64,000 nucleotides of DNA from NCBI GenBank assembly GCA_002841375.1, contig PGZO01000006.1:1-64000 (forward strand), given 5' to 3'. A program made the translations under genes and the position numbers. Below the pieces are notes generated by a model. It was not told the origin of the DNA. It saw only the letters and a list, made by a program, of their open reading frames with translations, and did not search any database. Numbering within the stretch: position 1 is the first letter of the stretch; each line of letters starts with the position of its first letter. This DNA is from Firmicutes bacterium HGW-Firmicutes-7. Its GTDB lineage: Bacteria > Bacillota > Clostridia > Lachnospirales > Vallitaleaceae. Shown one piece after another: positions 3,513-50,756 of this stretch.

Positions 3513-3521
3513 AGTTAACCT

Positions 3522-19182: not shown

Positions 19183-19218
19183 ATAAATCTCCTTTTAAAT
19201 AAATTTGTTTGTATCTTC

Positions 19219-19806: not shown

Positions 19807-19807
19807 T

Positions 19808-20449: not shown

Positions 20450-21567
20450 TTTTCTTCCCCCCAAACAACACTAGCCAAAGCCTTGGTCATACTACTTCCA
20501 GTAATTATTCCAGCAACGGTTTTGTCTCGATCTAATACAACAAGATAATCTGCTTTTGTTTCTATTAACTTATCAAAAGCTTCTTTTGCATTGGTCGTAA
20601 TCATAACCGTTTCAATTTGAGTATCTAAAATCTTAGAGATCATCTCACCTGGTTTTCCATGCTCCCTAATATTCTCAATAGTAACCGCACCTTTAAACTT
20701 GTCATTAACATCTACAACAACTGCTGAATTAAGTTCCCTTTTTTTCATGAGCGCCACACACTCAAGTGTTTTTTTCGTTTCTGGTACAATAAGCACCTTC
20801 TTCTTCATGACATCAGCACAAGTTAAATCATTGCCGTTAGGGGAAAAGGAAAGTTTTCCCAAAAAGTTACTGATAATTGGGTCTGCAGGCTTATTTAGCA
20901 TTTCTTCTGGAGAAGCAACTTGTAGAACCTTCCCTTTAGACATAAATACAATCTTATCCGCCATATTTACCGCTTCATCCATATCATGTGTTACAAAAAT
21001 AATAGTTTTATGTAATTTCTTTTGAAGTACTTTCAATTCATCCTGCAAATTTTCCCTTGTTATTGGATCAAGCGCTCCAAAAGGTTCATCCATTAATATA
21101 ATTGGGGGCTCACCTGCTAGCGCCCTTAATACACCAATACGCTGCTGCTGCCCACCACTTAACTCATTTGGATATTTTTTTGCATTCTCTTCATATGGCA
21201 TGTTCACAAGTTCTAACAGCTCACAAACCCTTTGATGGCATTTTTCTTTGCTCCATTTTAATAATTTAGGAACAACAGATATATTTTCTTCAATGGTCAT
21301 GTTAGGAAAAAGTCCTATTTGTTGAATAACATAACCTATTTTTCTACGAAGCTCAACGGCATCTATGTTCATAATATTCTTATCATCGATGCTAATGGTC
21401 CCTTCATCCATTTTAATTAATTTATTAATTAATTTTAATGTCGTGGTTTTACCGCAACCAGAAGGTCCAATAAGTACAACAAACTCTCCATCATTAATGG
21501 TTAAGCTTAAGTTGTCAACAACTGTTACATCATTATATTTCTTACTTACATTTTCATATACAATCAT
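20446..21567 (-). CDS. opuCA: Osmolyte ABC transporter ATP-binding protein with CBS domains
   Basis: A 373-residue ABC ATPase: Walker A GPSGCGKTT at 34-42, signature LSGGQQQR, Walker B ILMDEPFGALD, followed by two CBS domains (about residues 250-373, with AVVVDVNDKFKGAVTIENI and ADYLVVLDRDKTVAGIITG). CBS domains in OpuA/OpuC-type importers sense ionic strength or cyclic-di-AMP. The start at 21567 is supported by GAGAGGAG seven bases upstream; in-frame codons further upstream lack a site. First gene of the operon, under the promoter at 21686-21714. Confidence 0.9.
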   Translation of the reverse strand: MIVYENVSKKYNDVTVVDNLSLTINDGEFVVLIGPSGCGKTTTLKLINKLIKMDEGTISIDDKNIMNIDAVELRRKIGYVIQQIGLFPNMTIEENISVVPKLLKWSKEKCHQRVCELLELVNMPYEENAKKYPNELSGGQQQRIGVLRALAGEPPIILMDEPFGALDPITRENLQDELKVLQKKLHKTIIFVTHDMDEAVNMADKIVFMSKGKVLQVASPEEMLNKPADPIISNFLGKLSFSPNGNDLTCADVMKKKVLIVPETKKTLECVALMKKRELNSAVVVDVNDKFKGAVTIENIREHGKPGEMISKILDTQIETVMITTNAKEAFDKLIETKADYLVVLDRDKTVAGIITGSSMTKALASVVWGEEN

Positions 21568-21672
21568 ATATAGCTCCTCTCTATCGATAGCATCATTCTC
21601 ATTTTCTAGGAATACTGATACCATTCACTTCTCAAGGTTCATAAACATCATTATTGTTTATCACCAAAACAT

Positions 21673-22432: not shown

Positions 22433-23461
22433 TTAATCAAGTTTACTGATTATTTCTTGACACTTTAACCCATCACCAAAATCAGCACCAATGCAATCTT
22501 TTACCCCATCAACCTTATTAGCAAAATCTATAATTGATGCAGTATGACAATTTTGAAAGAAACCTAGTGAATCCCTTTCCTTAGGATAAAAACGCATAGA
22601 TGGATGGTTGCCCGGTACTGCTTTAAAAAGTGTTGATCCCGTATTAAAATCATGGATTTGAAGGATATATGGATTTGATAAATCTACCTTAATACTCCCC
22701 GTAGTTCCATATAAAACAAATTCATCTGCATGCTTTTGCTCTGCAAATACTCTAGATACTCCAACACTTCCTATCGTACCATCATGAAGCACCATTTCTC
22801 CACGCGTTATTTCATCAACTTCATTTCTATCTTTGAAATGAATTCTTGATTGATACTGTATTTCTTTAATATCACCTAACGTATAGTGTATGAGATCTAT
22901 TAGATGAGAACCTAAGTCTAGTAACGCGCCTCCACCAGAAGTCTTTAGTGTTCTCCAAACGCCTTTCTTTTCTTTACTTAAATAACTATTATGATAAATC
23001 TTTATTTTAAAATCAATGATTGATCCAATTGTCTTATTTTCTAATTCTTCTTTTAACAATGATATAACAGGTAAAAATCGATACATAAAAGCAACGCCAT
23101 TTATAATATTGTTTTCACGAACGAACTTGTTCATTTTTTCAGCATCTTCTAACGTTGATGCTAAAGGTTTTTCACAATAAATTGCTTTCTTATAGGCTAT
23201 TGCTTGTTCAACGATTTCTACGTGAGATTCATTAGGTGTACAAATACTAATAAAATCTAGTTTTGGATCTTCTAATACCGTTTGAAGATTCGTTACATTC
23301 GTAATCCCAGGTATATTTACTTGAATTGGCTTTCTTGTTACAACGTACGAAAGATTCAAAGAATAAGGTAGGCTATATCTCAAGTTTGCGTCATATGCTG
23401 CTAGTGCATGCGTTCTCCCTATACCTCCAAAACCTATTATTGCATAGTTTATTGCATTCAT
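22433..23461 (-). CDS. Gfo/Idh/MocA family oxidoreductase
   Basis: A 342-residue NAD(P)-dependent sugar oxidoreductase: Rossmann motif IIGFGGIGRTHA near the N terminus, YCEKPLASTLEDAEKM with the catalytic-region EKP, and GGGALLDLGSHLIDLIHY with the conserved aspartate and histidine. It is in the operon of a fructose-like PTS adjacent to a PflD-type locus. 1,5-anhydro-D-fructose reductase, which makes 1,5-anhydro-D-mannitol, is a Gfo/Idh/MocA enzyme, so that is a reasonable hypothesis; inositol or other sugar dehydrogenase activity is equally compatible with the family. The start at 23461 has AGAGGTG six bases upstream. Confidence 0.85.
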   Translation of the reverse strand: MNAINYAIIGFGGIGRTHALAAYDANLRYSLPYSLNLSYVVTRKPIQVNIPGITNVTNLQTVLEDPKLDFISICTPNESHVEIVEQAIAYKKAIYCEKPLASTLEDAEKMNKFVRENNIINGVAFMYRFLPVISLLKEELENKTIGSIIDFKIKIYHNSYLSKEKKGVWRTLKTSGGGALLDLGSHLIDLIHYTLGDIKEIQYQSRIHFKDRNEVDEITRGEMVLHDGTIGSVGVSRVFAEQKHADEFVLYGTTGSIKVDLSNPYILQIHDFNTGSTLFKAVPGNHPSMRFYPKERDSLGFFQNCHTASIIDFANKVDGVKDCIGADFGDGLKCQEIISKLD

Positions 23462-23523
23462 AATTACACCTCTCATATCTAGTATTATTTCATTACCCGC
23501 TTATATTTGTTTGTTTTCCAAAG

Positions 23524-23552
23524 AATCCTCAACCCAAAAGGGATTGAGGGTT
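23524..23552 (-). terminator. Hairpin after the EIIB gene
   Basis: Stem CCCTCAATCC with GGTTGAGGATT on the minus strand, directly after the EIIB stop. It has only a short T-run, so it may attenuate transcription into the Gfo/Idh gene or protect the upstream PTS mRNA. Confidence 0.55.
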
Positions 23553-23558
23553 CTAACT

Positions 23559-23879
23559 TTACAATTTTTTACTGTTGATATACGCTTCAACTTTTTCAAC
23601 TACTTTTTCAGCTTTTTTCACTAGGTCACTGACACCCACTTTTACTATTGGTTTCCCATCAAAACGTTCCAAACCTTTAAGTCCAATGTCATTTGTTAAA
23701 ATGACAACATCTGCATCTTTAATATCTTCCATCGTTAATTTATTCTCTATACCTATTGAACCTTGAGTTTCTACCTTTACTATAATTCCTTTAGCTTTTG
23801 CCGCTCTTTCAAGGGCTTCTGCTGACATATATGTATGGGCTACACCTGATGGGCATGCTGTTACAGCTACTATCTTCAT
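23559..23879 (-). CDS. Fructose-like PTS EIIB component
   Basis: A 106-residue EIIB of the fructose family; the phosphorylated cysteine is Cys9 in VTACPSGVAHTYM. It passes phosphate from EIIA to the incoming sugar. It lies 32 bases downstream of EIIC. Separate EIIA, EIIB and EIIC genes resemble the E. coli frw and frv fructose-like systems, and frw is linked there to pflD and fsaB. Confidence 0.92.
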   Translation of the reverse strand: MKIVAVTACPSGVAHTYMSAEALERAAKAKGIIVKVETQGSIGIENKLTMEDIKDADVVILTNDIGLKGLERFDGKPIVKVGVSDLVKKAEKVVEKVEAYINSKKL

Positions 23880-23911
23880 TATTTCACCTCCTAAACAGAA
23901 TAAATAGTTTA

Positions 23912-24979
23912 TTATTCAAATGATAGTTCAACTTCTTCAGATTTTGATGTAGTCTTTATGATTCTTTCTAAAACCGGTTTTTTCAGCGCATTTACAAGGA
24001 AGGCAGTTGTAAGAGACCCAACAATTATTGAAATTATATATGCCATCTTGCCTTTAACGGCCATAATTACAATCAACCCTCCCCATGCTACCATATTTTC
24101 AACGCTAAGTATAGCAGCAGTAGCACATCCAACAGCAGCACCAATCATAATTGATGGAATTACTTTAAGCGGATCAGCCGCTGCAAAGGGAATTGCACCT
24201 TCTGTAATACCTACAAACCCCATTAATATTGAAGCTCTACCTGCTTCTTTTTCTTCATCTGTATATTTTTTAGGTGCTAAAAATGTTGCTAATCCCATTC
24301 CAATTGGAGGAACACAAACACCTACTGCATTGATACCACCAATTCTATACATTCCTTGTGATACGGCCATAATCGTAAAAGCAAAAGCAACTTTGTTTAC
24401 AGGGCCTCCCATATCAAATGCATCCATAAGCCCTAATATAATTGCTAATATAATAATATTTCCTTGAGATACTCCACCTAACCATGCAGTTAACCCTTCT
24501 TGAAGTAAAGCAATTGGCGCTCCTATAACCCATTGCATTAATCCAGCTACAACAAACGTACCAATAATCGGTATTACAAAGATTGGCATAACGGATCTAA
24601 ATACTGGTGGTACTTTGATTTTCTTTAAATAGAAAACAACAATACCAGCTAGTAAACCTGCAATAATTGCACCAAAGAAACCAGCGCCCATTGCATTACC
24701 AACAGCAGCAGCGATTGCAGCTGGAGCTATACCAGGTCTTTCAGCAATTGAATAGGCAATGAAACCTGCTAAAATAGGAATCATTAGTTCAAAACCTCTG
24801 ACACCAATAAAAAATAAATCAAATAACCATGTACCTTCTGGTGGAACACCTCCTTGTCCGTATATTACGACAGAAAGTGCTAATAAAATACCGCCTGCAA
24901 CAACAAATGGGATCATGTAAGATACCCCTGTCATGAGGTGTTGTCGTGTACCTTTCAAGATCTTTTTCAAATCATTCAT
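23912..24979 (-). CDS. Fructose-like PTS EIIC component
   Basis: A 355-residue EIIC permease of the fructose family with eight or more membrane segments; the family hallmarks MTGVSYMIPFVVAGGILLA, DAFDMGGPVNKVAF and ITEGAIPFAA are present. It forms the translocation unit for a sugar or sugar alcohol that is phosphorylated by EIIB. Location beside a PflD-type glycyl radical enzyme suggests 1,5-anhydromannitol as the substrate, by analogy with the E. coli frw-pflD locus; fructose or a hexitol is the alternative. Confidence 0.92.
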   Translation of the reverse strand: MNDLKKILKGTRQHLMTGVSYMIPFVVAGGILLALSVVIYGQGGVPPEGTWLFDLFFIGVRGFELMIPILAGFIAYSIAERPGIAPAAIAAAVGNAMGAGFFGAIIAGLLAGIVVFYLKKIKVPPVFRSVMPIFVIPIIGTFVVAGLMQWVIGAPIALLQEGLTAWLGGVSQGNIIILAIILGLMDAFDMGGPVNKVAFAFTIMAVSQGMYRIGGINAVGVCVPPIGMGLATFLAPKKYTDEEKEAGRASILMGFVGITEGAIPFAAADPLKVIPSIMIGAAVGCATAAILSVENMVAWGGLIVIMAVKGKMAYIISIIVGSLTTAFLVNALKKPVLERIIKTTSKSEEVELSFE

Positions 24980-25101
24980 TTTATTACCCCCAGTGATTTA
25001 GTTTGCTTTGTACTGAACCTATATATCCTAATGAACTTATATGTTAATTACAAAGCTAGATTTATAAATGAAATAGTGACAATCTCACTATAGCATTCCA
25101 A

Positions 25102-25554
25102 CTAAAAGGTTAGAACTCTCATAATTTCATCTACTGTTTTTGCTTCCTTAAGACTTAATCTGAATTCTTCTCTCATAATCGATCTTGATAATTGAGATAG
25201 AACTTTTAGATGTGTATCCCCTGCTTCTTTTTCAGGTACTGCGATCATAAAAACATAACGAACCATCTCATCTTCGCTCCAACATATTTCATTTTTCAGC
25301 CTTGCAAAAGCAATTGTTGATTTCTTCACATAATCACTCTTCCCATGAGGTATTGCAAATCCATAACCAATAGATGTTGGGAAAGTGGCTTCTCTATCAT
25401 ATACAGCTTTCAAAAAGCCATTATAACCATTTAGTCGCTCATCTTTTTCAATAGACCTTGCCAACGTACACATCACTTCATCTTTATTATTCACTTCAAG
25501 ATCCATCATTATTACATTTTTACTAATCAGCTCTGACATCACTAGATTTTCCAT
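25102..25554 (-). CDS. Fructose-like PTS EIIA component
   Basis: A 150-residue EIIA of the fructose/mannitol family with the phosphohistidine in IGYGFAIPHGKS (His70). The ATG at 25554 has GGAGG eight bases upstream; the gene begins 32 bases inside the end of the PRD regulator gene, so the two are tightly coupled. It donates phosphate to EIIB and probably also to the regulator. Confidence 0.9.
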   Translation of the reverse strand: MENLVMSELISKNVIMMDLEVNNKDEVMCTLARSIEKDERLNGYNGFLKAVYDREATFPTSIGYGFAIPHGKSDYVKKSTIAFARLKNEICWSEDEMVRYVFMIAVPEKEAGDTHLKVLSQLSRSIMREEFRLSLKEAKTVDEIMRVLTF

Positions 25555-27616
25555 CTTCTATTCCTCCGTTTATAAGTAATTTCATTATTTGCACTTCATC
25601 TTTTGCCTCAATTATTTTTTGCACTGTTTCTTCATCTTCAAGAACAGAGTAAAAACTATTAAAAAATGATCTAAGGGCTTTACCATCCTCAAGTTTGAGC
25701 GCAAGCAGAAATATTAACTTAATTTCATTTTTATTCCATTTAATTGGATGTTCGAGCTTTATAATGCATATTTTAGACTTATTTACCAAGCTGTCTCTTC
25801 CATGTGGTATTGCTATACCTTTTCCAATATAAGTAGATCCTTTCTTTTCCCTTTCAAGAACATCTTGAATAAATCCTTCTTTTACATATCCAGCTTCAAT
25901 TAGTTTAATACCACAATCATGCATAATATTAATAAATGAATCCTTTTCGTGATATATAAAACATAGGTTTTGATCTATGATCCCGTTCAAGGGACTGTTG
26001 TCTAATTGTCTAGGTGGAAGACTTAATTGTTTTTTTACTTTATTACCTATATGGTTTTTTATTTTTAACACATCACTATCATCTAATAAATTACTCGTAT
26101 AAAGAACCTTTTCACTTTTTATTGGAAAATTAACAGTAGATATAATAATATCAGCTTCGTTAATAATATCCTCATTCAAGTAATTTATTGGTAAAACCGC
26201 AATGACTTGTATTTCTTCAATTTTATTTTCTAGTCTTGATCTTACTAGCTGTGAAGTACCCAACCCACTCGAACAAACAAGTACTGCCTTAATTTTATTG
26301 CTTTGTCTAGCTACACTTACAGCAAGATGCATTGATATATAAGCAACTTCATCTTCATTAATAAATAAGCCATAATTTCTTTCAAAAATCATGTTACATG
26401 CCCAGGCAGCTCCAAAGATACTGGTATATTCTTTTTTGATGATTTTAAGAATTGGATTCCTTAGTTTTAAACCATATTTCAATCGAACAACTGTTGGTTT
26501 TAAATGAAGTACGAGAGAGGTTAACAGCAATTGATCTTTCGTCAAATCAATATTTAAAATATCACTAGTGAGCTTAATAATATCAACAGCTAAGGTAATA
26601 AACTCTTCATTTTCGTTTAAAAACAACATATCTGAATTATTATTATTAAAATCTTCTTGGATTTTGGCCCCAAGTATGTGTAAGGAAATATATACGATTT
26701 CATCTTCAGTAAAACGAACACTTAACCCTACACTTAATTCATCCATTATCCATTTCGCTATAGCATATTCATACTTATCCTTAATTGAATCAAGTGTTCC
26801 TTCCATTAACACTACTATCTGTTTGATTTTGGTTCTTTCTATAGCAATGGCAATATGCGTAATGAGATTTATAAAAGCTTGATCAGTAAAATAGTATCCT
26901 AGTTTATCTTCAGCTTTTTTAACTGTTTGTTGGATTTTTATTAAATCAATACTAGGAAACAATTCTTTAATTTTCTTAAAGCTGACTAAGTCAAATCTGT
27001 AATCAAGTAGCATACTATCTATTGCTAAAACCGAGTTATCAAGCTCTAAATCTACACCTCTATACTGATATAATAAATCTACTAAAGCTTTCCTATAATT
27101 CCTTTCATCACCTTCTACCCAAAGACCTTGGTTTTGCTTTTTAACCAAAGCTAATCCTCTAGCTTCAAGCCACTGTTCCACTTGTACCAAGTCATTTGCA
27201 ATCGTACTTTTACTGCAAAATAATTCTTCTGCAAACAATGAAATTGTATATAAAAAATCACTCCTAAGTAATATAGAAAGCATATAGAACAATCGATAAT
27301 CAGTGGAATAACTTCGTATTACCTCCGTATCTAACTTTCGTTTCAACTCAGCTCTTTGCTCAGGGCTTATTTTCAAAAACACGCCTACATTTGGCTTAAT
27401 TACAAGTTCAATTCCATCTTCTAATAGTTCTGTTCTCAATTCGCTCAAGTATGTTCTTATCGTTCTACTTGACTTTTCATTTGATTCCGTCAACTCACAT
27501 ACAGTCGTTACTTCTTCGTTGTCAACTAACCACATCAGTAAATTTCTTTTTAAAGCAGCTTTGTTTTTAATTGTAATCACTCCCAATTTTAGTCTTGTAA
27601 TAAACATCTTGGGCAA
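25523..27616 (-). CDS. PRD-containing PTS-linked transcription regulator (MtlR/BglG type)
   Basis: A 697-residue multidomain regulator: N-terminal winged helix domains (about residues 15-170), two PRDs (about 180-400), an EIIB-like domain with the phosphocysteine motif CSSGLGTS (about 410-500), and a C-terminal EIIA-like domain with GKGIAIPHGRDS (about 545-690). Such proteins are activators switched by PTS phosphorylation. It sits first of the PTS block and overlaps EIIA. The start is unclear: the frame opens at 27616 without a ribosome site, and a GTG or ATT near 27575 after GGGAG is possible. Confidence 0.88.
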   Translation of the reverse strand: MPKMFITRLKLGVITIKNKAALKRNLLMWLVDNEEVTTVCELTESNEKSSRTIRTYLSELRTELLEDGIELVIKPNVGVFLKISPEQRAELKRKLDTEVIRSYSTDYRLFYMLSILLRSDFLYTISLFAEELFCSKSTIANDLVQVEQWLEARGLALVKKQNQGLWVEGDERNYRKALVDLLYQYRGVDLELDNSVLAIDSMLLDYRFDLVSFKKIKELFPSIDLIKIQQTVKKAEDKLGYYFTDQAFINLITHIAIAIERTKIKQIVVLMEGTLDSIKDKYEYAIAKWIMDELSVGLSVRFTEDEIVYISLHILGAKIQEDFNNNNSDMLFLNENEEFITLAVDIIKLTSDILNIDLTKDQLLLTSLVLHLKPTVVRLKYGLKLRNPILKIIKKEYTSIFGAAWACNMIFERNYGLFINEDEVAYISMHLAVSVARQSNKIKAVLVCSSGLGTSQLVRSRLENKIEEIQVIAVLPINYLNEDIINEADIIISTVNFPIKSEKVLYTSNLLDDSDVLKIKNHIGNKVKKQLSLPPRQLDNSPLNGIIDQNLCFIYHEKDSFINIMHDCGIKLIEAGYVKEGFIQDVLEREKKGSTYIGKGIAIPHGRDSLVNKSKICIIKLEHPIKWNKNEIKLIFLLALKLEDGKALRSFFNSFYSVLEDEETVQKIIEAKDEVQIMKLLINGGIEDGKSSDVRAD

Positions 27617-27751
27617 CTAACTATTGATTCAATCTAATTCAACTTGTTTTTTATTGTTTCGATGTTATTATCATAGCATCTCACTTTATAGATGTACATA
27701 GATCAAAGTTTAGTTTTGTTGCCACATCAATGTGGAAATTTCCTAGTAATA

Positions 27752-27782
27752 AAAGGGATGCTTCCTCAAATGGAATCACCCC
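27752..27782 (-). terminator. Probable terminator after the DeoR gene
   Basis: On the minus strand AGGGGTGATTCC pairs imperfectly with GGAAGCATCCCT and is followed by TTTTATT. It lies about 90 bases after the DeoR gene stop and before the PRD regulator. Confidence 0.5.
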
Positions 27783-27818
27783 TAATTTTTTTTCTGTGTT
27801 TATAATACTCAACATCTT

Positions 27819-27873
27819 CATTCGCTACGGTTTCGTAACGAGATGAAATAAGCTATGATTATTTCATCTCGTT
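27819..27873. repeat. Short repeat copy 2 joined to a perfect 15-bp inverted repeat
   Basis: The repeat CATTCGCTACGG followed by TTTCGTAAC (27819-27839) matches 7962-7982 with one change. It runs straight into the perfect inverted repeat AACGAGATGAAATAA / TTATTTCATCTCGTT (27837-27873), whose right end contains the stop codon of the DeoR gene. Without a T-run it is more like a mobile palindromic element than a terminator. Confidence 0.6.
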
Positions 27874-28633
27874 ATACCAAATTCACATTAAATTGTTCTA
27901 ATAGATATTCTACTTTTGGATCAGGCATCTCATCTACAACAATTGTATCAAAATCATAAATCTCAGCAAACTTGTAAACACCATCTGAATAAAACTTCTT
28001 TGAACCTATAACGAGGTAGGTCTTTTTGCTTGCATTCATAATAGCACGTTTGGTATTACCATCCTCCACTAAAAATGTTGTTATGCTATGATCTGCCACA
28101 TCAACTCCACAACTTCCAATAAAGGCTCGGTCAACTTTATATTTAGATATATATTCAATTGTAGATGACCCAATAAATCCACTCAGTTCTTTATTTAGAA
28201 CACCTCCAATACCAATTACTTCAACATTAGGACATTGGGATAGTATTTGAATGACATCTACCATATTTGAAATAACTGTCATTTTTTTCCTACCTTGCGC
28301 AATATATTCTGCTACCACAATATTTGTTGAAGCAATGTCTAAAAATATAGTCTCCCTCTCTTTAATAATCTCATACACCTTCTCAGCTATACGCTGTTTT
28401 GATTCAATATCCAAATTCTTCCTGCTAACGATCGTCCTGTTCAAGCTAGATTCTCTTGACAAAACAGCACCACCATAAGTCCGTTTTATTAACCCATTTT
28501 TTTCGAGTATTTTCAAATCTTTACGAATACAATCTTCCGTAACATCAAACTTTATACTTAGATCTTTTACAATTATTTTTCCATTTAAATTAAGTAAATT
28601 GATAATTTCTTGTAATCTTTCTTCAACAAACAA
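27872..28633 (-). CDS. DeoR-family regulator
   Basis: A 253-residue DeoR-type repressor: N-terminal HTH with VKDLSIKFDVTEDCIRKDLK and the RTYGGAVL linker, then the DeoRC sugar-phosphate sensor domain (RKNLDIESKQRIAEKVYEII, VVAEYIAQGRKKMTVISN). The start is a TTG at 28633 with GGAGG seven bases upstream; an in-frame ATG at 28651 overlaps this site. It lies between the HAD phosphatase and PTS genes on the same strand, and likely responds to a phosphorylated sugar of this locus. Confidence 0.87.
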   Translation of the reverse strand: MFVEERLQEIINLLNLNGKIIVKDLSIKFDVTEDCIRKDLKILEKNGLIKRTYGGAVLSRESSLNRTIVSRKNLDIESKQRIAEKVYEIIKERETIFLDIASTNIVVAEYIAQGRKKMTVISNMVDVIQILSQCPNVEVIGIGGVLNKELSGFIGSSTIEYISKYKVDRAFIGSCGVDVADHSITTFLVEDGNTKRAIMNASKKTYLVIGSKKFYSDGVYKFAEIYDFDTIVVDEMPDPKVEYLLEQFNVNLV

Positions 28634-28718
28634 GATAAATCCTCCATTCATACTTATTGCTTCTTATTTCATCTTATTATATCTTATTGAAAATCTTTTT
28701 TCAAATTCTTTTTCGTAT

Positions 28719-29600
28719 TTAAAGGTATTTATTAATAGCATAAGCAACACCATTTTCTTGATTTGTTAACGTTATATCATCTGCAATTTCTTTTACCTGC
28801 TCATATGCATTGCCCATCGCAATTCCCAAACCAGCGTATTCTATCATATGTATATCATTTCCTGAATCTCCTATACAAATGATTTCTTCTTTTGAGATAT
28901 TATATAGCTTCGCTACTTCTTTTACGCCCACAGCTTTATTACACTTTTTATTTAGAATTTCCAAGCAAAAAGTTAAGGGTCTTACAACTGTATGGTTATT
29001 AATTATATCTTTTGGAAACCGCCACAATTCACCTAATAAGTCTTTATTAAAATTAGCTTTTGGCCTCATATACATTCCTTCAAGTTGAATTGCCGGAAAA
29101 TATTCACGCATCTGCTCCATGATCTCCATAGATTCATTGATAAGATTTACTTTATAAACTGCCCGATCAGGATTTAGTTGATGAAAATCAACTTTTTCCA
29201 AAGGAGCATAATTTGCAACAGCATCATACCTACTAAATAAGTTTTCTCTATGAATTAGAATACTTTCTTTTGTATATGCACTCATATCAAGATTGAAGTC
29301 TTCACACATTGCATGAATTTTCATTAAATCTTCATATTGAATCCGTATTCCATGAAAAACTTGACGCGTCTTGTTATCTAGTGCTAAGGCACCACTACAG
29401 GCAATAGAATAATTTCCCTCTTTCACTAAGTCAAGCTCCTTAAGATAAGGAAGTACCCCTTCAAAAGAACGCCCAGTAGCAAGCACCACTTTAATTCCTT
29501 TCTTAATTGCTTTTTTAACAGCAATTATATTTTCTTTAGAGATTTTTTGTCTCTCATTTAACAATGTTCCATCCATATCTAACACGAGCATTCGGTACAT
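28719..29600 (-). CDS. HAD superfamily Cof-type sugar phosphatase
   Basis: A 293-residue HAD hydrolase of the Cof/YidA (IIB cap) type. Motif I is DMDGTLLN (Asp8 nucleophile), the threonine motif is LATGRS, and GDSGNDIHMIEYAG is motif III/IV. Such enzymes dephosphorylate sugar phosphates, and may relieve phosphosugar stress in the PTS pathway. AGGAG lies seven bases before the ATG. The insertion sequence is inserted only 22 bases upstream of the ATG, separating it from its likely promoter at 31431-31460. Confidence 0.87.
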   Translation of the reverse strand: MYRMLVLDMDGTLLNERQKISKENIIAVKKAIKKGIKVVLATGRSFEGVLPYLKELDLVKEGNYSIACSGALALDNKTRQVFHGIRIQYEDLMKIHAMCEDFNLDMSAYTKESILIHRENLFSRYDAVANYAPLEKVDFHQLNPDRAVYKVNLINESMEIMEQMREYFPAIQLEGMYMRPKANFNKDLLGELWRFPKDIINNHTVVRPLTFCLEILNKKCNKAVGVKEVAKLYNISKEEIICIGDSGNDIHMIEYAGLGIAMGNAYEQVKEIADDITLTNQENGVAYAINKYL

Positions 29601-29622
29601 TTCAATTCTCCTTTTATGTTTT

Positions 29623-31428
29623 GAGCACTCTCGGAAACTCTAAAAAGCCCGAGTTTGCTCTTTTTTATTTATTAATGTTCCTTTGTTTTTCTCCAACTTT
29701 TCTGCATATTTTTTCAAATAGACTTGACAAATGTATAAAAATTTGCGGCGAAGCCCTTATCAAAAATATATTTTTTTGGAGGTGCTTCATACATGCTGAA
29801 AAATTGGACTTCTCATGCTGAATATCATCAATTTATTACTAACGCTGTTTCCGCTCTTAACGAGTCACAGCTAAAAAAATTCAATTCTTATTCCAACTCT
29901 CTGGCAAAACTTACTTCGTTAAACCTCGACCCACTTGCTGTTCATCTTGCGCCTTATTATTCTTCTACCGGAAGACCTGCTTTGCATCAGCCTGAAATTT
30001 TCCGTTCCTTTATTTTAATGTTGGATCAAAATATTACAAGCATTGATCTATGGGTAAAAATATTATTAAATGACGATCTCCTTGCCCTGCTTATCGGTTG
30101 CCATCCTGATGAACTTCCACCTTTAGGTTCTTACTATGATTTCATTGACCGCCTTTGGCTCCATCACAAAGATTTGGATAAAACCGACAGGAATAAACTC
30201 TATCATTTCCCTAAGAACAAGCGCCCCAGTTCAAAGCCCGGAAAGGGTAAAAAGCTTTCCAACAGACATCCCGATATTGTAAAGAAAGTGGTTTCTTTTG
30301 TTCTTGATGAAAGGGAATTCCCTTTTCATTATGAACAGCTTCTTCAAGAAATTTTCTCACTTATTGCAATTGTACCTTCACTAGAATTAAACCTTTTTTC
30401 TTCCGATTCTCTTACTCTCTCAGGCGACGGCACTTGTGTCCATTGTCATTCCGATACGCTTGGTACTAAGGTCTGCAACTGCAAATCTAACGGTGTTTAC
30501 GACTGCAAGTGTGATCGCAAATTCTCTGATCCCGATGCTTCTTTTGGTTGGGACAGTGACCTCGCTGCTTGGTATTTTGGTTACACGCTTTACATGCTTT
30601 CTACCTATAATCCCACTTATCATATAGACTTGCCTCTACATATCCGCTTTCTTGATGCAAGACGTCATGATAGCATCAATGCCATTGTGGCTCTTTCGGA
30701 GTTTAGAAAATTAAATTCAAACATTCCCATTACTAATCTCTGTCTGGACTCGGCTAATGACAATTACCCAACCTATGAACTGTGCAATAAATGGAACATC
30801 ATTCCTTTTATAGATTTGAACGCCAACCGCGGTCATCCTAAATCACTTCCTCAGACTATGGCTTTCTCCAAAGAAGGCCTTCCTCTTTGTAGCGCCGGTC
30901 TTGAAATGGTATTGCAAGGCTTCTGTACGGGACGTTCCCGCCACAAATGGCGTTGTCCCGCCATGTGTGGCATTGTTGATGAATGTCCCCTTGGTACTTC
31001 CTGCTCTCCCTCTTCATATGGGCGAGTAGTTTATACTAAACCGGACTGGGATGTTCGTCTCTTCCCACCTGTTCCACGAGGCACAAAAGCTTGGAAGGAT
31101 GTTTACAGTACCCGAACCAGTTCAGAACGTGTTAACAATCGCTTTCTCAATGACTATCGTTTACATAATATGAGAATTCGGGGCAAAAAACGTTATTCGT
31201 TTATCGCTATGATGATCGGTATCAATATCCATTTGGATGCCAGAATTAAAAAAGCTAAAATAGATGCTGCTTAATCATTTGATTCAATCCTTTTCAAAAG
31301 TCTGCTAACGGGAGGTTTGTTTCTTATGCCCTATTTCAAATATCTCGTTTCAAAAATCAGGCACATTCCCTATTTGCAGAAAATTGCATAAAATCTCAAG
31401 CTTTATTCATTAGTTTCCGAGAGTACTC
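29623..31428 (+). mobile_element. Complete insertion sequence, 1806 bp, with TIRs and 5-bp TSD
   Basis: The ends are GAGCACTCTCGGAAACT at 29623-29639 and its inverse (GAGTACTCTCGGAAACT read on the minus strand) at 31412-31428: 16 of 17 bases match. GTTTT occurs immediately outside both ends (29618-29622 and 31429-31433), a 5-bp target duplication. The single long frame inside encodes a transposase. The clean duplication and intact frame suggest a recent insertion. The family is DDE-type, IS1182-like or a relative; I cannot fix it without a search. Confidence 0.85.
29793..31274 (+). CDS. DDE transposase of the insertion sequence
   Basis: A 493-residue transposase. The N-terminal part (YYSSTGRPALHQPEIFRSF, then LGSYYDFIDRLW) resembles the DUF772-type helical domain of IS1182/IS5-group transposases; the core has an LSGDGTCVHCHSD aspartate motif and FLDARRHDS, LCLDSANDNYP. 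A cysteine cluster (CVHCHSD, CNCKSNG, CKCDRKF) interrupts the core and another (CPAMC, DECPLGTSC) follows, suggesting bound zinc. The C terminus (TSSERVNNRFLNDYRLHNMR) carries the Glu of the DDE triad. GGAGGTG precedes the ATG. Codon use appears less AT-biased than in the neighbours. Confidence 0.85.
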   Translation: MLKNWTSHAEYHQFITNAVSALNESQLKKFNSYSNSLAKLTSLNLDPLAVHLAPYYSSTGRPALHQPEIFRSFILMLDQNITSIDLWVKILLNDDLLALLIGCHPDELPPLGSYYDFIDRLWLHHKDLDKTDRNKLYHFPKNKRPSSKPGKGKKLSNRHPDIVKKVVSFVLDEREFPFHYEQLLQEIFSLIAIVPSLELNLFSSDSLTLSGDGTCVHCHSDTLGTKVCNCKSNGVYDCKCDRKFSDPDASFGWDSDLAAWYFGYTLYMLSTYNPTYHIDLPLHIRFLDARRHDSINAIVALSEFRKLNSNIPITNLCLDSANDNYPTYELCNKWNIIPFIDLNANRGHPKSLPQTMAFSKEGLPLCSAGLEMVLQGFCTGRSRHKWRCPAMCGIVDECPLGTSCSPSSYGRVVYTKPDWDVRLFPPVPRGTKAWKDVYSTRTSSERVNNRFLNDYRLHNMRIRGKKRYSFIAMMIGINIHLDARIKKAKIDAA

Positions 31429-31430
31429 GT

Positions 31431-31460
31431 TTTATGTCTAAATATTAATTGTAATGTCAA
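31431..31460 (-). promoter_or_regulatory. Stranded promoter of the HAD-DeoR-PTS operon
   Basis: On the minus strand a consensus -35 TTGACA (31455-31460) and a -10 like CATAAA (31431-31436) are 18 bases apart and point at the insertion sequence. Removing the element would place the promoter about 30 bases before the HAD start codon. Transcripts would now run antisense into the transposase gene. Confidence 0.55.
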
Positions 31461-31571
31461 TAATTAGCTTTTTTAGCAAACACCAAATCTATAATGCTAC
31501 TTTACAATTAAAATCGTCAAACTGCAACTAGTATTCCTAACCTTAAATTATTAATTTATTAAAAATTGTTG

Positions 31572-31600
31572 TTGCAATCTCGACAACATAATCATATAAT
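31572..31600 (+). promoter_or_regulatory. Promoter of the pflD operon
   Basis: TTGCAA and TATAAT separated by 17 bases, 88 bases before the ATG. A small inverted repeat GTTG..CGACAAC overlaps the -35 and spacer, and a tandem AATACAAATC (two copies, 31621-31640) lies downstream; these are candidate regulator sites. Confidence 0.65.
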
Positions 31601-31688
31601 AATATCAAGTAATAATCAACAATACAAATCAATACAAATCAATTTATACGAATCGTTGACTTAATATGCTAAAAAGGAGGAATAATAC

Positions 31689-33989
31689 ATGAGTTTTTCA
31701 AGAATTGAGGCTTTAAAAAAACAGCTTTTCGAAAACCCCAGGGAAGTGTCTATAGAAAGAGCGCTACTTTATATGCAGAGCCATAAAGAAACAGAAGGCG
31801 ATCCTATTATTCTAAGACGCGCTAAAGCTACCGCTTATATATTGGATCATGTCAATATATCAATAAGAAAAAGCGAACTTATTGCAGGAAATAGAACCAT
31901 CAAGCCAAGAAGCGGAATCATTTCTCCGGAGATGTCTCCTTACTGGATTAATAATGAAATAGACACACTTGCCACCAGGCCTCAAGATCATTTCATTTTT
32001 AACGATGAAGACAAAAAAACATTTTCTGAAGTACTCTATCCTTATTGGAAAGGGCGTTCCTTAAAAGATTACATAAGTGACAAGTTAACAGATGAAGTGA
32101 AAGCTACTACCCGTTTAAAGATTGTTACACTAAATCAAACCGACAAAGGACAAGGTCATATTATACCTGATTTTGAAAACATATTAAAAAAAGGATTAGG
32201 AACTATTGTTGATGAGCTAAAGAACTATCACAAAAAAGATCAAACCAATCATTTTTATCAAGCCGCAATAATTGTTCACGAGGCAACTAAACGTCATATT
32301 TCAAGATATGCTATCTTAGCAAAATTAGAGGCTTCTAATACTACTGATGAAACACGAAAATCAGAATTGCTTGCTATCGCAACAATTTCCGAAAAAATTA
32401 CTACACAGGCTCCTGATACTTTTTATGAAGCTTGCCAACTAATATGGTTTATATGCATTGCTTTACAATATGAATCTAATGCCAGCTCTATATCCTTAGG
32501 ACAATTTGATAAATATATGTATCCATATTATAAAAAGGATATTGAACGAGGTATTCCATTAAGTGCGCTAAAAGAGATTCTCAAATGCCTTTGGATCAAA
32601 ACAAATGACGTTGTTCTTATTCGCAGTGAAAACAGCGCAAAATATTTTGCAGGTTTTCCAACTGGTTATACGATTACTTTAGGGGGGCTAACTTCAAATG
32701 GTCGTTGTGCAGTAAACGACTTATCTTACCTTGCATTGGAAACCTATCAAGATATTCGTCTTCCCCAACCTAATCTTGGCGTTAGAATAAATGAATTAAT
32801 ACCACGAGACTTTTTACTTAAGACAGCAGAAACGATTCGATTAGGAACAGGTATCCCTCAAATATTCAACGATGAAGTTGTTGTTCCTGCTTTCCTAAAT
32901 CGAGGTGTTAGCCTTGAAGATGCAAGAGATTATTCTGTTGTTGGTTGTGTAGAATTGACGATACCAGGAAAAACATACGGTTTACATGATATTGCGCTAT
33001 TCAACCTCCTTAAGGTTATGGAAGTTAGTTTAAAGGAACTAGAAGATGTTCCAAACATTGGGTTTGATCAAATTATCGAATTTATCAAGAAAAATATCGA
33101 GTATCATGTAAATCTGATGGTTAAGGGAAGTAATTTAGTAGATATTGGTCATAGAGAATATGCCCCTGTTCCCCTTCTCTCTAGTATAATAGACAACTGC
33201 TTAGAAAAAGGCTTAGACATTACCGAAGGTGGTGCAAAATACAATTTTTCTGGTGTTCAAGGTATTGGTATTGCAAACCTTAGCGATTCTCTTTATGCAC
33301 TTAAAAAAATTGTCTATGAAGAGAAAAGAATCTCCTTCAAGGAACTCATTATAGCTTTAGATAATAACTTTGAGGGAGAAGAAAACCGTTTATTACAGGC
33401 AAGGCTTATTAATAAATATGATAAATATGGAAATGATATTGATGAAGTTGATTATATAAGCTCGGATTTATTACGCTATTATTCAAAGGTAGTGGAAAAA
33501 CATCTCACACCAAGAGGCGGTCACTTTACCCCCGGCTCTTACACCGTTTCAGCACACATCCCTCTTGGTGAAGCAGTTGGTGCTACACCTGATGGTCGAA
33601 ATGCAGCGGAACAATTAGCAGACGGTGGGCTTTCTCCGATGGTAGGAAGAGATTCCCATGGCCCTACTGCTGCCCTAAAAAGCGTAAGTAAGTTAGATGG
33701 GTATTTATTAAGTAATGGAAGCTTATTAAATGTTAAGTTCAGTCCCAGTGCCCTGGCCAAAGAAGATGGTTTACATAAATTAGCCGATTTCTTACTAGCT
33801 TTTATGAAGCTTAAAATACTCCATGTTCAATTCAATGTAGTTAACGCTAAAACCTTAAAAGAGGCACAAAAAAATCCAAGTAAATATAGCGGTCTAGTAG
33901 TTAGAGTTGCTGGGTATAGTGCTTTTTTCAGCGATTTAAGTATACAGATCCAAAATGATATCATCGAAAGAACAGAACATGAGTTATAA
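31689..33989 (+). CDS. pflD: PflD-type glycyl radical enzyme, probable 1,5-anhydromannitol-6-phosphate lyase
   Basis: A 766-residue glycyl radical enzyme. The catalytic Cys420 and base Glu422 lie in SVVGCVELTIPGKTYG and the radical glycine is Gly742 in VVRVAGYSAFF. It lacks the paired cysteines of pyruvate formate-lyase. From memory of the E. coli protein it aligns along its length with PflD (ILRRAKATAYILDHV, LIAGNRTIKPRSGI, LDYSVVGCVEL-like segment), which has been reported to open the ring of 1,5-anhydromannitol 6-phosphate to 1-deoxyfructose 6-phosphate. AAAGGAGGA precedes the ATG. First gene of an operon with its activase and an aldolase; the fructose-like PTS operon is divergent. Confidence 0.9.
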   Translation: MSFSRIEALKKQLFENPREVSIERALLYMQSHKETEGDPIILRRAKATAYILDHVNISIRKSELIAGNRTIKPRSGIISPEMSPYWINNEIDTLATRPQDHFIFNDEDKKTFSEVLYPYWKGRSLKDYISDKLTDEVKATTRLKIVTLNQTDKGQGHIIPDFENILKKGLGTIVDELKNYHKKDQTNHFYQAAIIVHEATKRHISRYAILAKLEASNTTDETRKSELLAIATISEKITTQAPDTFYEACQLIWFICIALQYESNASSISLGQFDKYMYPYYKKDIERGIPLSALKEILKCLWIKTNDVVLIRSENSAKYFAGFPTGYTITLGGLTSNGRCAVNDLSYLALETYQDIRLPQPNLGVRINELIPRDFLLKTAETIRLGTGIPQIFNDEVVVPAFLNRGVSLEDARDYSVVGCVELTIPGKTYGLHDIALFNLLKVMEVSLKELEDVPNIGFDQIIEFIKKNIEYHVNLMVKGSNLVDIGHREYAPVPLLSSIIDNCLEKGLDITEGGAKYNFSGVQGIGIANLSDSLYALKKIVYEEKRISFKELIIALDNNFEGEENRLLQARLINKYDKYGNDIDEVDYISSDLLRYYSKVVEKHLTPRGGHFTPGSYTVSAHIPLGEAVGATPDGRNAAEQLADGGLSPMVGRDSHGPTAALKSVSKLDGYLLSNGSLLNVKFSPSALAKEDGLHKLADFLLAFMKLKILHVQFNVVNAKTLKEAQKNPSKYSGLVVRVAGYSAFFSDLSIQIQNDIIERTEHEL

Positions 33990-33999
33990 GGAGAATACG

Positions 34000-34821
34000 A
34001 TGAAAGGACTTATCTTTAATATTCAGCGATATTCTCTGCACGACGGAGGTGGCGTAAGAACAATGATTTTCTTTAAGGGTTGTCCGCTACATTGTCCTTG
34101 GTGTTCTAATCCAGAGTCCCAACGCTTTCAAGTTGAAGAAGTTCGAATGCTCACTAAGTGTTTACATTGTAAAACTTGTACTAAAAATGTGGAAGAATGC
34201 CCCTCAGGAGCAATGGTCCGTTTCGGTACTTATATGTCAATAAAAGAAATTATTGATATAGTCCTAAAGGACATGGTTTTTTACAGAACAACTGGTGGCG
34301 GTGTAACGCTATCTGGCGGCGAAGTTCTCTCTCAACCAGAATTTGCAATTGAGTTGTTAAAAGAGCTTAAAACCCTTGGCATCCATACAGCAATTGAAAC
34401 TTCTGGTCAAGGCAATACAAATGCATTAATGGCAATAGTAAATCATTTAGATGTAGTCTTATATGATTTAAAAATAATGGACCCAACGTTGGCTAAAGAA
34501 CTTTTAAATGCAGATAGTTCTCTTATAGAGGCGAATTTAATTGCTTTGGTTAAAAAAGAAAAAAAGGTCATTCCTAGAATCCCTTTAGTTCCAGGTCATA
34601 CAATGAATATGGATAATATGAACGCCATAATGAACCTTGTTCTGAAATTAAACCTTAAAGAAATACATTTACTCCCCCTTCATCATTATGGGGCTACTAA
34701 ATATGATGCTTTAAATATCCCTTATAAAGCAAAAGATATTAAAGTTCCTACCGAGAAAGAAATTGCCAAACTTAAGGCTTTCTTCGAAGGAAATGGATTA
34801 AAAGTTTGTATAGGTGGTTAA
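34000..34821 (+). CDS. pflC: Glycyl radical enzyme activase (radical SAM), PflC-like
   Basis: A 273-residue radical SAM activase. The SAM iron-sulfur motif is CPLHCPWC, with the preceding DGGGVRTMIFFKG typical of GRE activases, and a shortened ferredoxin-like insert carries CLHCKTC and ECPSGAM. TLSGGEVLSQPEF and DLKIMDP complete the family pattern. It abstracts a hydrogen from the radical glycine of the upstream enzyme. The start at 34000 has AAGGAG seven bases upstream and falls ten bases after the pflD stop. Confidence 0.92.
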   Translation: MKGLIFNIQRYSLHDGGGVRTMIFFKGCPLHCPWCSNPESQRFQVEEVRMLTKCLHCKTCTKNVEECPSGAMVRFGTYMSIKEIIDIVLKDMVFYRTTGGGVTLSGGEVLSQPEFAIELLKELKTLGIHTAIETSGQGNTNALMAIVNHLDVVLYDLKIMDPTLAKELLNADSSLIEANLIALVKKEKKVIPRIPLVPGHTMNMDNMNAIMNLVLKLNLKEIHLLPLHHYGATKYDALNIPYKAKDIKVPTEKEIAKLKAFFEGNGLKVCIGG

Positions 34822-34854
34822 ATACTTAAATAAAAATTTAAAGGAGTTAAAAAA

Positions 34855-35724
34855 ATGAAAAAAATACTTTTAACAGGTGGACTAGGTTTCTTTTGTACAC
34901 GTTTTACTGAAAGGTATCAACATACTTTTCAAATATTATCAACAGACAAGGATGATTTAGATATTGTTGACGAGCAAAGCGTATTAGAAACCTTTAAAAT
35001 GTTCAAACCTGATTATGTCATTCATGCTGCTGCAATCGCAGATACTGATTTTTGTAACAAGCATCCAGAAATTGCGTACAAAATTAATGTTACTGGTGCA
35101 ATCAATGTAGCGAAAGCCTGTAAGGCAACTGGTGCAAAAATGGTTTTCATCAGCACCGAACAAGTTTTCAATGGAAATAAAGAATCTGGCCCATATAACG
35201 AAACAAATTTACCAATACCCAATACTGTTTATGGAGAAAACAAACTTGAAGCAGAAGGTCTATTAAGAAACATATTAGATGATTTATGGATACTACGCTT
35301 CACATGGTTATTTGGTTTACCCGAGAGAAACTGTAGCATTAATCCAAATATTTTATGGAATACTTTAGCATTAGCAATAAAAGGTGAAAAAACAAAAATA
35401 ACAACAAACGAATATCGTGGTCTTACCTATGTACATGAGCTAATTGATCAATTTTCTATGATTTTCGAACTACCTTTTGATACATATCATGTTGGTAGCC
35501 ATAATAATTTAAGTCGCTATGATATAACAGCTTACATCTTAAAGGAACTAGGTTTAGCCAACCGTATTGCTGCACTTATTGAAAAAGATACGGATAAATA
35601 CAGCGATCAACCTAGAGATGCAAGACTTTGTACAAATAAAATCAGACAATTTGGTTTTCATTTTTCAGATACGACCGATTCAATAACACAATGCTTAAAA
35701 GAATTTCAATTTAATATAAAATAA
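34855..35724 (+). CDS. SDR family protein, RmlD-like
   Basis: A 289-residue extended short-chain dehydrogenase with an N-terminal LLTGGLGFFCTRF nucleotide-binding motif, PDYVIHAAAIADTDFC, STEQVFNG, and the YGENK pair (Tyr-x-x-x-Lys). It is closest in style to dTDP-4-dehydrorhamnose reductases, but the first glycine motif departs from GxxGxxG (GGLGFFC). No rhamnose genes are nearby. It lies between the pflD activase and the aldolase in the same operon, so it may reduce an intermediate such as hydroxyacetone or prepare the substrate; that is inference. Confidence 0.8.
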   Translation: MKKILLTGGLGFFCTRFTERYQHTFQILSTDKDDLDIVDEQSVLETFKMFKPDYVIHAAAIADTDFCNKHPEIAYKINVTGAINVAKACKATGAKMVFISTEQVFNGNKESGPYNETNLPIPNTVYGENKLEAEGLLRNILDDLWILRFTWLFGLPERNCSINPNILWNTLALAIKGEKTKITTNEYRGLTYVHELIDQFSMIFELPFDTYHVGSHNNLSRYDITAYILKELGLANRIAALIEKDTDKYSDQPRDARLCTNKIRQFGFHFSDTTDSITQCLKEFQFNIK

Positions 35725-35754
35725 ATACCAATGAAATAAGAAGGAGAATTACCT

Positions 35755-36435
35755 ATGCTATATTTATTAGATACCGCGAACTTATCAGAAATAAGAAAGG
35801 CTTATGATTTATATCCTATGGACGGTGTAACTACTAATCCTACGCTCATCGCAAATGAACAAGTAAATTTTATCGATCATTTAAAAGAAATACGTTTAAT
35901 TATCGGTGAAGAATCCATGTTACACGCTCAAGTCTTAAGTAATACAGCTGAAACAATGATTGAAGAAGCACAATATCTTCTGGAAAAAATAGGAGGAAAT
36001 TTATATATTAAAATTCCCGCTACTTCTCAAGGTATAAAAGCTATAAAAATATTAAGCCAAAAAGGCATTAAACTTACTGCAACTGCTATCTTTACAGCTC
36101 AACAAGCATTGATGGCAGCAAAAGCTGGTGCTGCATTTGTTGCACCTTATGTAAATCGAATTGATAACATAAGCGGAAGTGGTGTTTCTGTTGTAGAAGA
36201 CATTGTTCGACTATTTGACACCTTTGACATAAATACAAAAGTATTAGCTGCATCCTTTAAAAACGTGCAACTAGTACACAATTCTTTATTAACGGGTGCA
36301 CATTCAATTACTGTAAATATGGAAACATTTGATATGCTTATCGAACACCCTCTTACCGATTGGAGTGTTGATCAATTTGTTAAAGATTGGGAGCTGCAAT
36401 ATGGACGTGGAAAAACTGTTTTAGATATGATTTAG
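35755..36435 (+). CDS. fsa: Fructose-6-phosphate aldolase/transaldolase-like (FSA)
   Basis: A 226-residue small transaldolase-family protein of the FSA type: LDTANLSEI, DGVTTNPTLIA, Schiff-base Lys86 in YIKIPAT, and the GAAFVAPYVNRID segment. E. coli FsaA and FsaB have been reported to split 1-deoxyfructose 6-phosphate to glyceraldehyde 3-phosphate and hydroxyacetone, following YbiW and PflD. It follows pflD in this operon and is the only aldolase of this kind in the window, so it would serve both glycyl radical loci. AGAAGGAG precedes the ATG. Confidence 0.92.
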   Translation: MLYLLDTANLSEIRKAYDLYPMDGVTTNPTLIANEQVNFIDHLKEIRLIIGEESMLHAQVLSNTAETMIEEAQYLLEKIGGNLYIKIPATSQGIKAIKILSQKGIKLTATAIFTAQQALMAAKAGAAFVAPYVNRIDNISGSGVSVVEDIVRLFDTFDINTKVLAASFKNVQLVHNSLLTGAHSITVNMETFDMLIEHPLTDWSVDQFVKDWELQYGRGKTVLDMI

Positions 36436-39508: not shown

Positions 39509-39533
39509 ATAATCCTCCATTTGATTATGTTCG

Positions 39534-42002: not shown

Positions 42003-42039
42003 AATTTTTATTATCCTTTCAAAATTAAATTTAGTTATT

Positions 42040-42159: not shown

Positions 42160-42178
42160 ATGGTTATAGTGTCAAAGG

Positions 42179-50744: not shown

Positions 50745-50756
50745 TCAGATTTCCTC

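Follow-up and report, generated by a model that had tools for sequence, protein, structure and literature searches.

A PflD locus with additional RmlD-like SDR and Gfo/Idh oxidoreductase genes in a Vallitaleaceae genome: a candidate variant of anhydroglycolysis

Anhydroglycolysis was described as recently as 2024. According to section 5.1 of a review (PMC12441222), Ma et al. (J Am Chem Soc 2024) found that the glycyl-radical enzyme (GRE) PflD cleaves 1,5-anhydromannitol-6-phosphate (AM6P) to 1-deoxyfructose-6-phosphate, that YbiW forms the same product from 1,5-anhydroglucitol-6-phosphate (AG6P), and that both sugars enter by the phosphotransferase system (PTS). Here we describe a locus of this kind in Firmicutes bacterium HGW-Firmicutes-7. 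It occupies positions 22433-36435 of a 64-kb window (the whole stretch of DNA analysed, contig PGZO01000006.1) and is referred to as the PflD locus; a second arm lies at 49776-60244 of the same window. The original prediction placed the E. coli frw PTS genes beside pflD-pflC and near fsaB, and this is the case, ptsA-fsaB-gldA diverging from frwC-frwB-pflD-pflC-frwD. Such an order agrees with the later steps of the pathway, which are reportedly cleavage by fructose-6-phosphate aldolase (FSA) to glyceraldehyde-3-phosphate and hydroxyacetone, followed by the action of GldA. We regard the window locus as a variant of this already described pathway, with a short-chain dehydrogenase/reductase (SDR) and a Gfo/Idh oxidoreductase as additions relative to E. 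coli. The original interpretation of the locus is partly supported by the comparisons below.

Every gene that had been named in the original prediction is present, with coordinates and strand unchanged, and the open reading frames (ORFs) agree with the Pfam and NCBIfam scans. The minus strand carries genes for Gfo/Idh, EIIB, EIIC, EIIA, a PRD regulator, a DeoR regulator and a haloacid dehalogenase (HAD)-type phosphatase. The plus strand carries pflD, pflC, SDR and fsa in close succession: pflD and pflC overlap by 35 bp, and gaps of 33 bp and 30 bp separate pflC from the SDR gene and the SDR gene from fsa. While this gene list stood, a 1.8-kb insertion sequence within the locus and the second glycyl-radical locus had been missed.

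The plus-strand core is clearly of the pflD type. The PflD ortholog (31689-33989) scores 1307.8 bits against PRK09983 (cut-off 1109) and is 64.6% identical to E. coli PflD. Its closest PDB chains are those of PflD, 8YJO being the best and 8ID0 the other, while E. coli pyruvate formate-lyase (PFL; 1H16) reaches only 130 bits. In a tree of 28 GREs it falls with PflD of E. coli, Salmonella, Vibrio and two relatives, the congener G002 and G003 from another genus, in a six-row clade at 100/100. The translation holds GCVE and RVAGYS, which we take to be the active-site cysteine and the glycyl radical motif, as well as the Gly_radical domain (PF01228). The adjoining gene encodes PflC, the radical-SAM activating enzyme (33955-34821, plus strand; PRK10076, 350.5 bits, cut-off 326). 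The aldolase gene fsa (35755-36435, plus strand; TIGR00875, 249.6 bits, cut-off 245.95) specifies a protein that retains Q59, K85, Y131 and R134 of FsaA, the first three of which are presumably the functional residues typical of FSA, and that is 57% identical to the Vibrio enzyme and 38-39% to FsaA/FsaB. The clade of this FSA is not confined to the anhydro-sugar pathway, since a 55% identical FSA lies within a glucitol PTS cluster of Priestia megaterium.

The PTS genes, all on the minus strand, are likewise of the frw type. EIIB (23559-23879; PRK10474, 165.6 bits, cut-off 135) is 69% identical to E. coli FrwB, and EIIC (23912-24979; PRK10478, 502.1 bits, cut-off 426) is 57% identical to FrwC and 63% to its Vibrio counterpart. 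Neither the multiphosphoryl protein PtsA nor FrwD was found among the ORFs of the PflD locus, which has instead a stand-alone fructose-type EIIA (25102-25554; TIGR00848, 121.6 bits, cut-off 103.5). Because this core is orthologous to frw/pflD, and E. coli PflD is reported in the review to cleave AM6P, the window locus most likely handles 1,5-anhydromannitol. The earlier claim that a Frw-like PTS, PflD, PflC and FSA together form a catabolic locus is thus borne out, with PflD orthology in its support. Nearly the same set recurs in G003 (lacking the HAD gene) and on a Vibrio plasmid, which argues that the arrangement is more than chance; both have the gene order pflD-pflC-SDR-fsa together with a Gfo/Idh gene.

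PflD is rare in these bacteria. The order searches covered 392 and 315 genomes and the phylum searches 398, 378 and 249, only the best first-look candidates being scored. At E 1e-250 the order gave PflD in 3 genomes out of 392, own genome included, and at E 1e-220 it was found in 3 of 398 genomes of the phylum sample, namely our own and two at 49% identity. A scan of genome contigs seeded with poorly conserved PflD peptides returned seven distant GREs of 28-37% identity, and the loci of six, all but L016, were annotated. The PflD locus of G002 has no EIIA, EIIB, EIIC or PRD genes and retains Gfo/Idh, DeoR, HAD and the pflD operon; no frw-type EIIC was found elsewhere in the G002 genome (best match 47%).

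From these comparisons a pathway can be proposed. The PTS would import 1,5-anhydromannitol as AM6P, as the orthology of FrwB and FrwC suggests. PflD, once activated by PflC, would break the C-O bond by glycyl-radical chemistry, opening the ring to give 1-deoxyfructose-6-phosphate, the activity reported for the E. coli enzyme. The FSA-type aldolase, in which the expected motifs are observed, would then release glyceraldehyde-3-phosphate and hydroxyacetone, a reaction that we take to be known for FsaA and FsaB. We put the probability of these three steps at roughly 0.7, judging from sequence.

The second arm would treat 1,5-anhydroglucitol in a similar manner. It consists of an rbs-like sugar ABC (ATP-binding cassette) transporter on the minus strand (49776-54330; two permeases, an ATPase with PF00005 and a binding protein with PF13407) and, on the plus strand, a DeoR-family regulator (54956-55717; 70% ortholog in genomes G005 and G007), a YbiY-like glycyl-radical activating enzyme (55903-56844; 44% to YbiY), a YbiW ortholog (56847-59261; 57.7% to YbiW) and a ROK sugar kinase (59276-60244; PF00480; TIGR00744, 202.5 bits, below the cut-off of 260). 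The YbiW ortholog, a putative AG6P lyase, is sister to E. coli YbiW at 100/99 in the 28-row tree, and among PDB chains YbiW (8ID7/8YJN, 1032 bits) comes second to 6XS4 (1035 bits). The kinase is a candidate anhydroglucitol kinase. No aldolase gene lies beside the YbiW ortholog, and this arm probably borrows the aldolase and SDR encoded at 34855-36435.

That SDR (34855-35724, plus strand; PF04321) is an RmlD-like extended SDR with a YxxxK motif, of which Y126 and K130 are invariant over ten aligned rows. At 155.2 bits it falls below the cut-off of 224.05 for TIGR01214 and is not assigned to the dTDP-4-dehydrorhamnose reductase RmlD. It is 60% identical to the gene at the equivalent position (pflC-SDR-fsa) in Vibrio sp. 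THAF190c. A match at E 1e-60 was obtained in seven of the 315 genomes searched in the order, own included, with identities of 56-89% in the other six. In three of the seven it lies in a PflD locus (own, G002, G003), in three beside fsa in a YbiW-branch locus (G005, G006, G007; 74-75% to the window SDR), and in G058 by a frw-type PTS. The YbiW-branch placing comes from the 28-row tree for the GREs of G005 and G007, that of G006 being known only from a fragment (55%) at the edge of a contig. In G058 the SDR, PTS, Gfo/Idh and DeoR genes share a 6.6-kb contig that has no GRE. The phylum sample gave 2 of 249 genomes, our own and one with an unlinked gene at 41%. Ortholog status was denied to SDR relatives from Enterococcus raffinosus (36%), two Persicobacter records (41-43% to the Vibrio SDR) and G430 (41%); the surroundings, read for all of these but one of the Persicobacter records, held no frw/pflD locus, and a YbiW-branch GRE lies 6.4 kb from the SDR relative of E. 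raffinosus.

Since the SDR accompanies fsa in PflD-type and YbiW-branch loci alike, it most likely serves a step common to both arms. A search of our own genome (89 contigs) for a gldA ortholog gave no match at E 1e-15; GldA orthologs were found in three of ten genomes searched (G003, G014 and G058), and of the seven genomes with the SDR five have none (own, G002, G005, G006, G007). On account of its place by fsa in both locus types and of the missing GldA ortholog, the SDR is a candidate for reduction of hydroxyacetone to 1,2-propanediol. This is our leading guess and not a finding, and we rate its chances as a little short of even.

The second addition, a Gfo/Idh/MocA oxidoreductase of 347 amino acids (22433-23476, minus strand; Pfam PF01408 and PF22725), is a candidate feeder reductase of NADP(H) type. 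It retains the EKP lysine K103, D187 and H191, presumably the catalytic residues, and has T-R-K-P after beta-2 with no acidic residue in the cofactor loop, from which we infer a preference for NADP(H). Orthologs lie within the pflD loci of G002 (83%) and G003 (59-60%). Among 22 genomes of the family, own included, a Gfo/Idh ortholog at about 60% at least occurs in three, and a PflD ortholog of at least 69% occurs in the same three alone. The phylum sample gave 2 of 378 genomes at E 1e-55, our own and G657 at 38%. One partial relative of Gfo/Idh and none of the SDR was met in a search of viral contigs, and single-sequence AlphaFold models of the two proteins were uninformative (mean pLDDT, the predicted local distance difference test, 38.0 and 40.6).

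The original prediction pointed out that the 1,5-anhydrofructose reductase (AFR) of the Gfo/Idh family makes 1,5-anhydromannitol, and suggested that the locus might also use 1,5-anhydrofructose from the breakdown of starch. A grouping with the known reductase was not obtained: 2GLX was the tenth PDB match (61.6 bits) and 4KOA the 22nd of 45 (44.9 bits), and AFR did not join the window protein in a short tree (23 sequences and 145 columns, 2GLX represented by residues 3-254 only and 4KOA left out, with 6 of 20 inner branches well supported). Nor did the protein cluster with inositol or other dehydrogenases, the outcome that had been named as contrary to the suggestion; the window clade, comprising the proteins of the window, G002, G003 and G657, stands apart at 96/93. 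With no grouping with AFR in this short tree, the idea of an anhydrofructose reductase is drawn from genomic context and not from sequence descent. The context is favourable, in that the gene is kept with pflD in G002, where the PTS is missing. The chemistry also fits well, because the Sinorhizobium AFR is stated in the review to convert anhydrofructose to anhydromannitol, the sugar of the PflD arm (PMC12441222). We propose tentatively, with the odds somewhat against it, that Gfo/Idh reduces 1,5-anhydrofructose or its 6-phosphate to anhydromannitol or AM6P and so feeds the manno arm.

A survey of 19 locus groups (profile built from the compared Gfo/Idh sequences, themselves included; E 1e-10; ORFs of at least 120 amino acids) found a Gfo/Idh gene in five: the window, G002, G003, Vibrio and G058. 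G430, the Persicobacter record, L014-L019, two more G058 loci and the Gfo/Idh loci of G657 and G014 lay outside its scope. All five frw/PflD loci with an SDR (at least 56%) have the gene and none of the three SDR-bearing YbiW-branch loci (G005, G006, G007) does; among the six loci with a true PflD it is present in four, E. coli and Salmonella being the others. The count is weak, because close relatives make up three of the five positives. In the Gfo/Idh tree the Vibrio protein groups with YhhX (98/94) and that of G058 with 2HO5 (94/88), near DHDH (93/90). The recurrence of unrelated Gfo/Idh genes in one kind of locus suggests a real step, though each could serve something else. DHDH, an animal protein, is given as an efficient anhydrofructose reductase in a section of the review on reduction to anhydroglucitol (PMC12441222). 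As it is the animal protein nearest the G058 group, the Gfo/Idh family may have acquired anhydrofructose reduction on more than one occasion.

Taken together, these elements could form a system with three entries: anhydromannitol through the PTS, anhydroglucitol through the ABC transporter and ROK kinase, and anhydrofructose (or its 6-phosphate) through a new Gfo/Idh clade that reduces it to the manno form. The product of starch glucan lyase would thereby be joined to radical-mediated glycolysis, with the SDR replacing GldA as the shared hydroxyacetone reductase and Gfo/Idh enzymes recruited to this one entry step at least three times. As a whole this scheme is speculative and rather doubtful. 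The recurring SDR and the unrelated Gfo/Idh genes nevertheless provide concrete candidates, both for the reduction of hydroxyacetone and for entry from 1,5-anhydrofructose, which lyases form from starch and glycogen. If true, starch lysis would be connected in anaerobes to a glycolysis that forms 1,2-propanediol, and more starch-derived sugar would be fed into the pathway.

Several observations weigh against the proposed roles of the two additions. The PflD loci of E. coli and Salmonella have neither SDR nor Gfo/Idh, and therefore neither is needed for the pathway. The gldA gene is missing also from two genomes without the SDR (G019 and G020) and is present in three of eight SDR-bearing cases (G003, G058 and Vibrio, where it adjoins the SDR cluster), so that the SDR is not simply a substitute for GldA. 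Other dehydrogenases are candidates for the reduction of hydroxyacetone or lactaldehyde, for example the iron alcohol dehydrogenase at 4012-5202. G058 has no PflD ortholog, the six GREs found there being at most 45% identical to PflD. The Gfo/Idh relatives of G657 (37-38%) and G014 (28-32%) lie away from GRE genes, and AFR (2GLX) falls in an unresolved fork of the 145-column tree and not among the 11 rows that include the window clade. At 19-24% identity, the proteins of Vibrio and G058 are not orthologous to that of the window, the three types belonging to different clades, and the Vibrio gene has as neighbours SIS, pfkB and HbpS-like genes, which it could serve. Lastly, an insertion could silence the HAD-to-Gfo/Idh operon in this strain.

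This insertion sequence (29623-31428, plus strand; 1806 bp) has imperfect 17-bp terminal inverted repeats, matching at 16 of 17 positions, and a transposase ORF of 493 amino acids (29793-31274, plus strand; PF13751, 21.9 bits, below the cut-off of 25.1). It sits between HAD and pflD, within the divergent promoter region, and is absent at the equivalent place in G002, which has a short intergenic region instead. As it lies 22 bp upstream of the HAD start, the HAD-to-Gfo/Idh operon may have lost its promoter. A candidate pflD promoter (31572-31600, plus strand; TTGCAA-17-TATAAT) is left intact and is kept in G002; matches of the -35/-10 kind in the scanned region are not above shuffled sequence (6 against a mean of 6.9).

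The most serious alternative, which we still consider unlikely, is that Gfo/Idh acts on another sugar or polyol such as inositol, levoglucosan or a glycoside, and lies in the locus for reasons of regulation or by chance. Its best PDB matches point that way, 6A3F being first (96.2 bits) and followed among the top matches by 4H3V, 4GQA and the scyllo-inositol dehydrogenase 5YA8; 6A3F we take to be levoglucosan dehydrogenase. The relatives in G657 and G014 outside GRE loci are also in keeping with it. The curated models for these activities are, however, far from satisfied, with 122.8 of 650 bits for levoglucosan dehydrogenase (NF052479) and 91.3 of 355 bits for IolG (TIGR04380), and the gene is in the pflD locus in all three family genomes that have either ortholog.

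It is improbable, but conceivable, that Gfo/Idh interconverts C2 epimers, either oxidising anhydroglucitol or AG6P to the ketone or converting the ketone to the manno form, and so shunts glucitol-type substrate to PflD. Such a role would account for Gfo/Idh genes accompanying SDR loci of the PflD/frw type and not those of the YbiW branch, and for G002, which retains Gfo/Idh and PflD without the frw PTS and has an ABC/ROK locus of the anhydroglucitol type. Against this, the window and G002 each have a YbiW ortholog of their own, making epimerisation unnecessary, and the NADP(H)-like motif would suit reduction better than oxidation.

The SDR could itself reduce the C2 ketone of 1,5-anhydrofructose-6-phosphate, with hydroxyacetone reduced by a dehydrogenase encoded elsewhere. 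It belongs to the RmlD fold family, RmlD acts on a pyranose ketone, and gldA is present in the Vibrio locus and in the genomes of G003 and G058. We give this reading a low probability: the SDR gene lies by fsa in YbiW-branch loci too, where a reductase forming AM6P has no obvious use, and our own genome is without gldA. Finally, an ordinary fructose-type PTS with a PFL-like enzyme, as in the current annotation, echoes the RefSeq name of E. coli PflD ('putative formate acetyltransferase 2') and that of PRK09983 (formate C-acetyltransferase), but is very improbable given the PDB ranking of 8YJO and 8ID0 far ahead of 1H16 and the PflD activity given in the review (PMC12441222).

The regulators and the phosphatase of the locus are all encoded on the minus strand. 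The PRD regulator (25523-27616) combines a helix-turn-helix domain, two PRD domains and EIIB-like and EIIA-like domains by Pfam. The DeoR-family regulator (27872-28651; Pfam DeoRC and HTH_DeoR) has a 69-70% ortholog in G005 and G007, where it adjoins a gene for a ROK kinase in the vicinity of the YbiW-branch locus. In these two genomes the orthologs of both window DeoR regulators (68-70%) are near one another and with a YbiW-branch gene, which fits a joint regulon. A shared operator was sought and not found, there being no 11-mer common to the upstream regions of pflD and the second arm, and operators were rejected as an argument for coregulation. The Cof-type HAD sugar phosphatase (28719-29600; TIGR00099, 186.9 bits, cut-off 137) is 26% identical to YbiV; in E. 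coli the HAD gene ybiV adjoins ybiW.

Some neighbouring genes deserve mention. Between the two arms (37514-46659) are genes for transketolase, a fused E1 alpha-beta (822 amino acids), E2, E3 and lipoate-synthesis-like proteins, and G005 and G007 have a similar 2-oxoacid dehydrogenase set not far from their YbiW-branch loci. An osmoprotectant-type ABC system precedes Gfo/Idh in the window (18265-21624) and directly follows the second-arm ROK gene in G002 (L081 3035-6407), indicating rearrangement between congeners. At 3135-5202 the window encodes a EutS-like microcompartment shell protein, a small GTPase-like ORF and the iron alcohol dehydrogenase. In the pflD locus of Vibrio, SIS-domain and HbpS-like genes (L047 5208-6274) separate Gfo/Idh from pfkB, and an HbpS-like gene also occurs by the SDR in G058 and by the GREs in G005, G006 and G007. 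A GRE clade near PflD (42-45% identity; L054 9818-12208, L076 14759-17149, L060 9086-11479, L104 9078-11420) has an FSA gene nearby in G014 and in G058 and possibly includes a lyase for another anhydro-sugar phosphate. In G392 and G689 (L050 8627-15040, L051 9173-15742) an apparent operon encodes two GREs that differ from each other, together with an ABC transporter and two kinases, one of the ROK family and one probably a sugar kinase.

Comparison with the known systems defines what is shared and what is particular to the window. As in the frw/pflD/fsaB/gldA locus of E. coli K-12, FrwB, FrwC, PflD, PflC and an FSA-type aldolase are encoded in one divergent locus, but PtsA, FrwD and GldA are lacking, and a stand-alone EIIA, the PRD and DeoR regulators, SDR, Gfo/Idh and HAD are present. 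The second arm resembles the E. coli ybiV/ybiW/ybiY/fsaA locus, the 1,5-anhydroglucitol arm, in its YbiW ortholog and YbiY-like activase, and differs from it in having an ABC transporter and ROK kinase and no adjoining fsa. 1,5-Anhydro-D-fructose reductase (2GLX, 4KOA) shares with the window protein the Gfo/Idh family, the EKP lysine and the D...H motif, and 2GLX also the non-acidic cofactor loop. In contrast, 2GLX is only 31% identical over 141 aligned residues and is not its sister in the tree, and other families score higher. Another close system is the pflD locus on plasmid pTHAF190c_b of Vibrio sp. THAF190c, with a frw-type PTS, the order pflD-pflC-SDR-fsa, an SDR at 60%, an FSA at 57% and a Gfo/Idh gene. 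Unlike the window, its Gfo/Idh belongs to another clade (24%), and it has ptsP, gldA, pfkB, SIS and HbpS-like genes and an AraC regulator.

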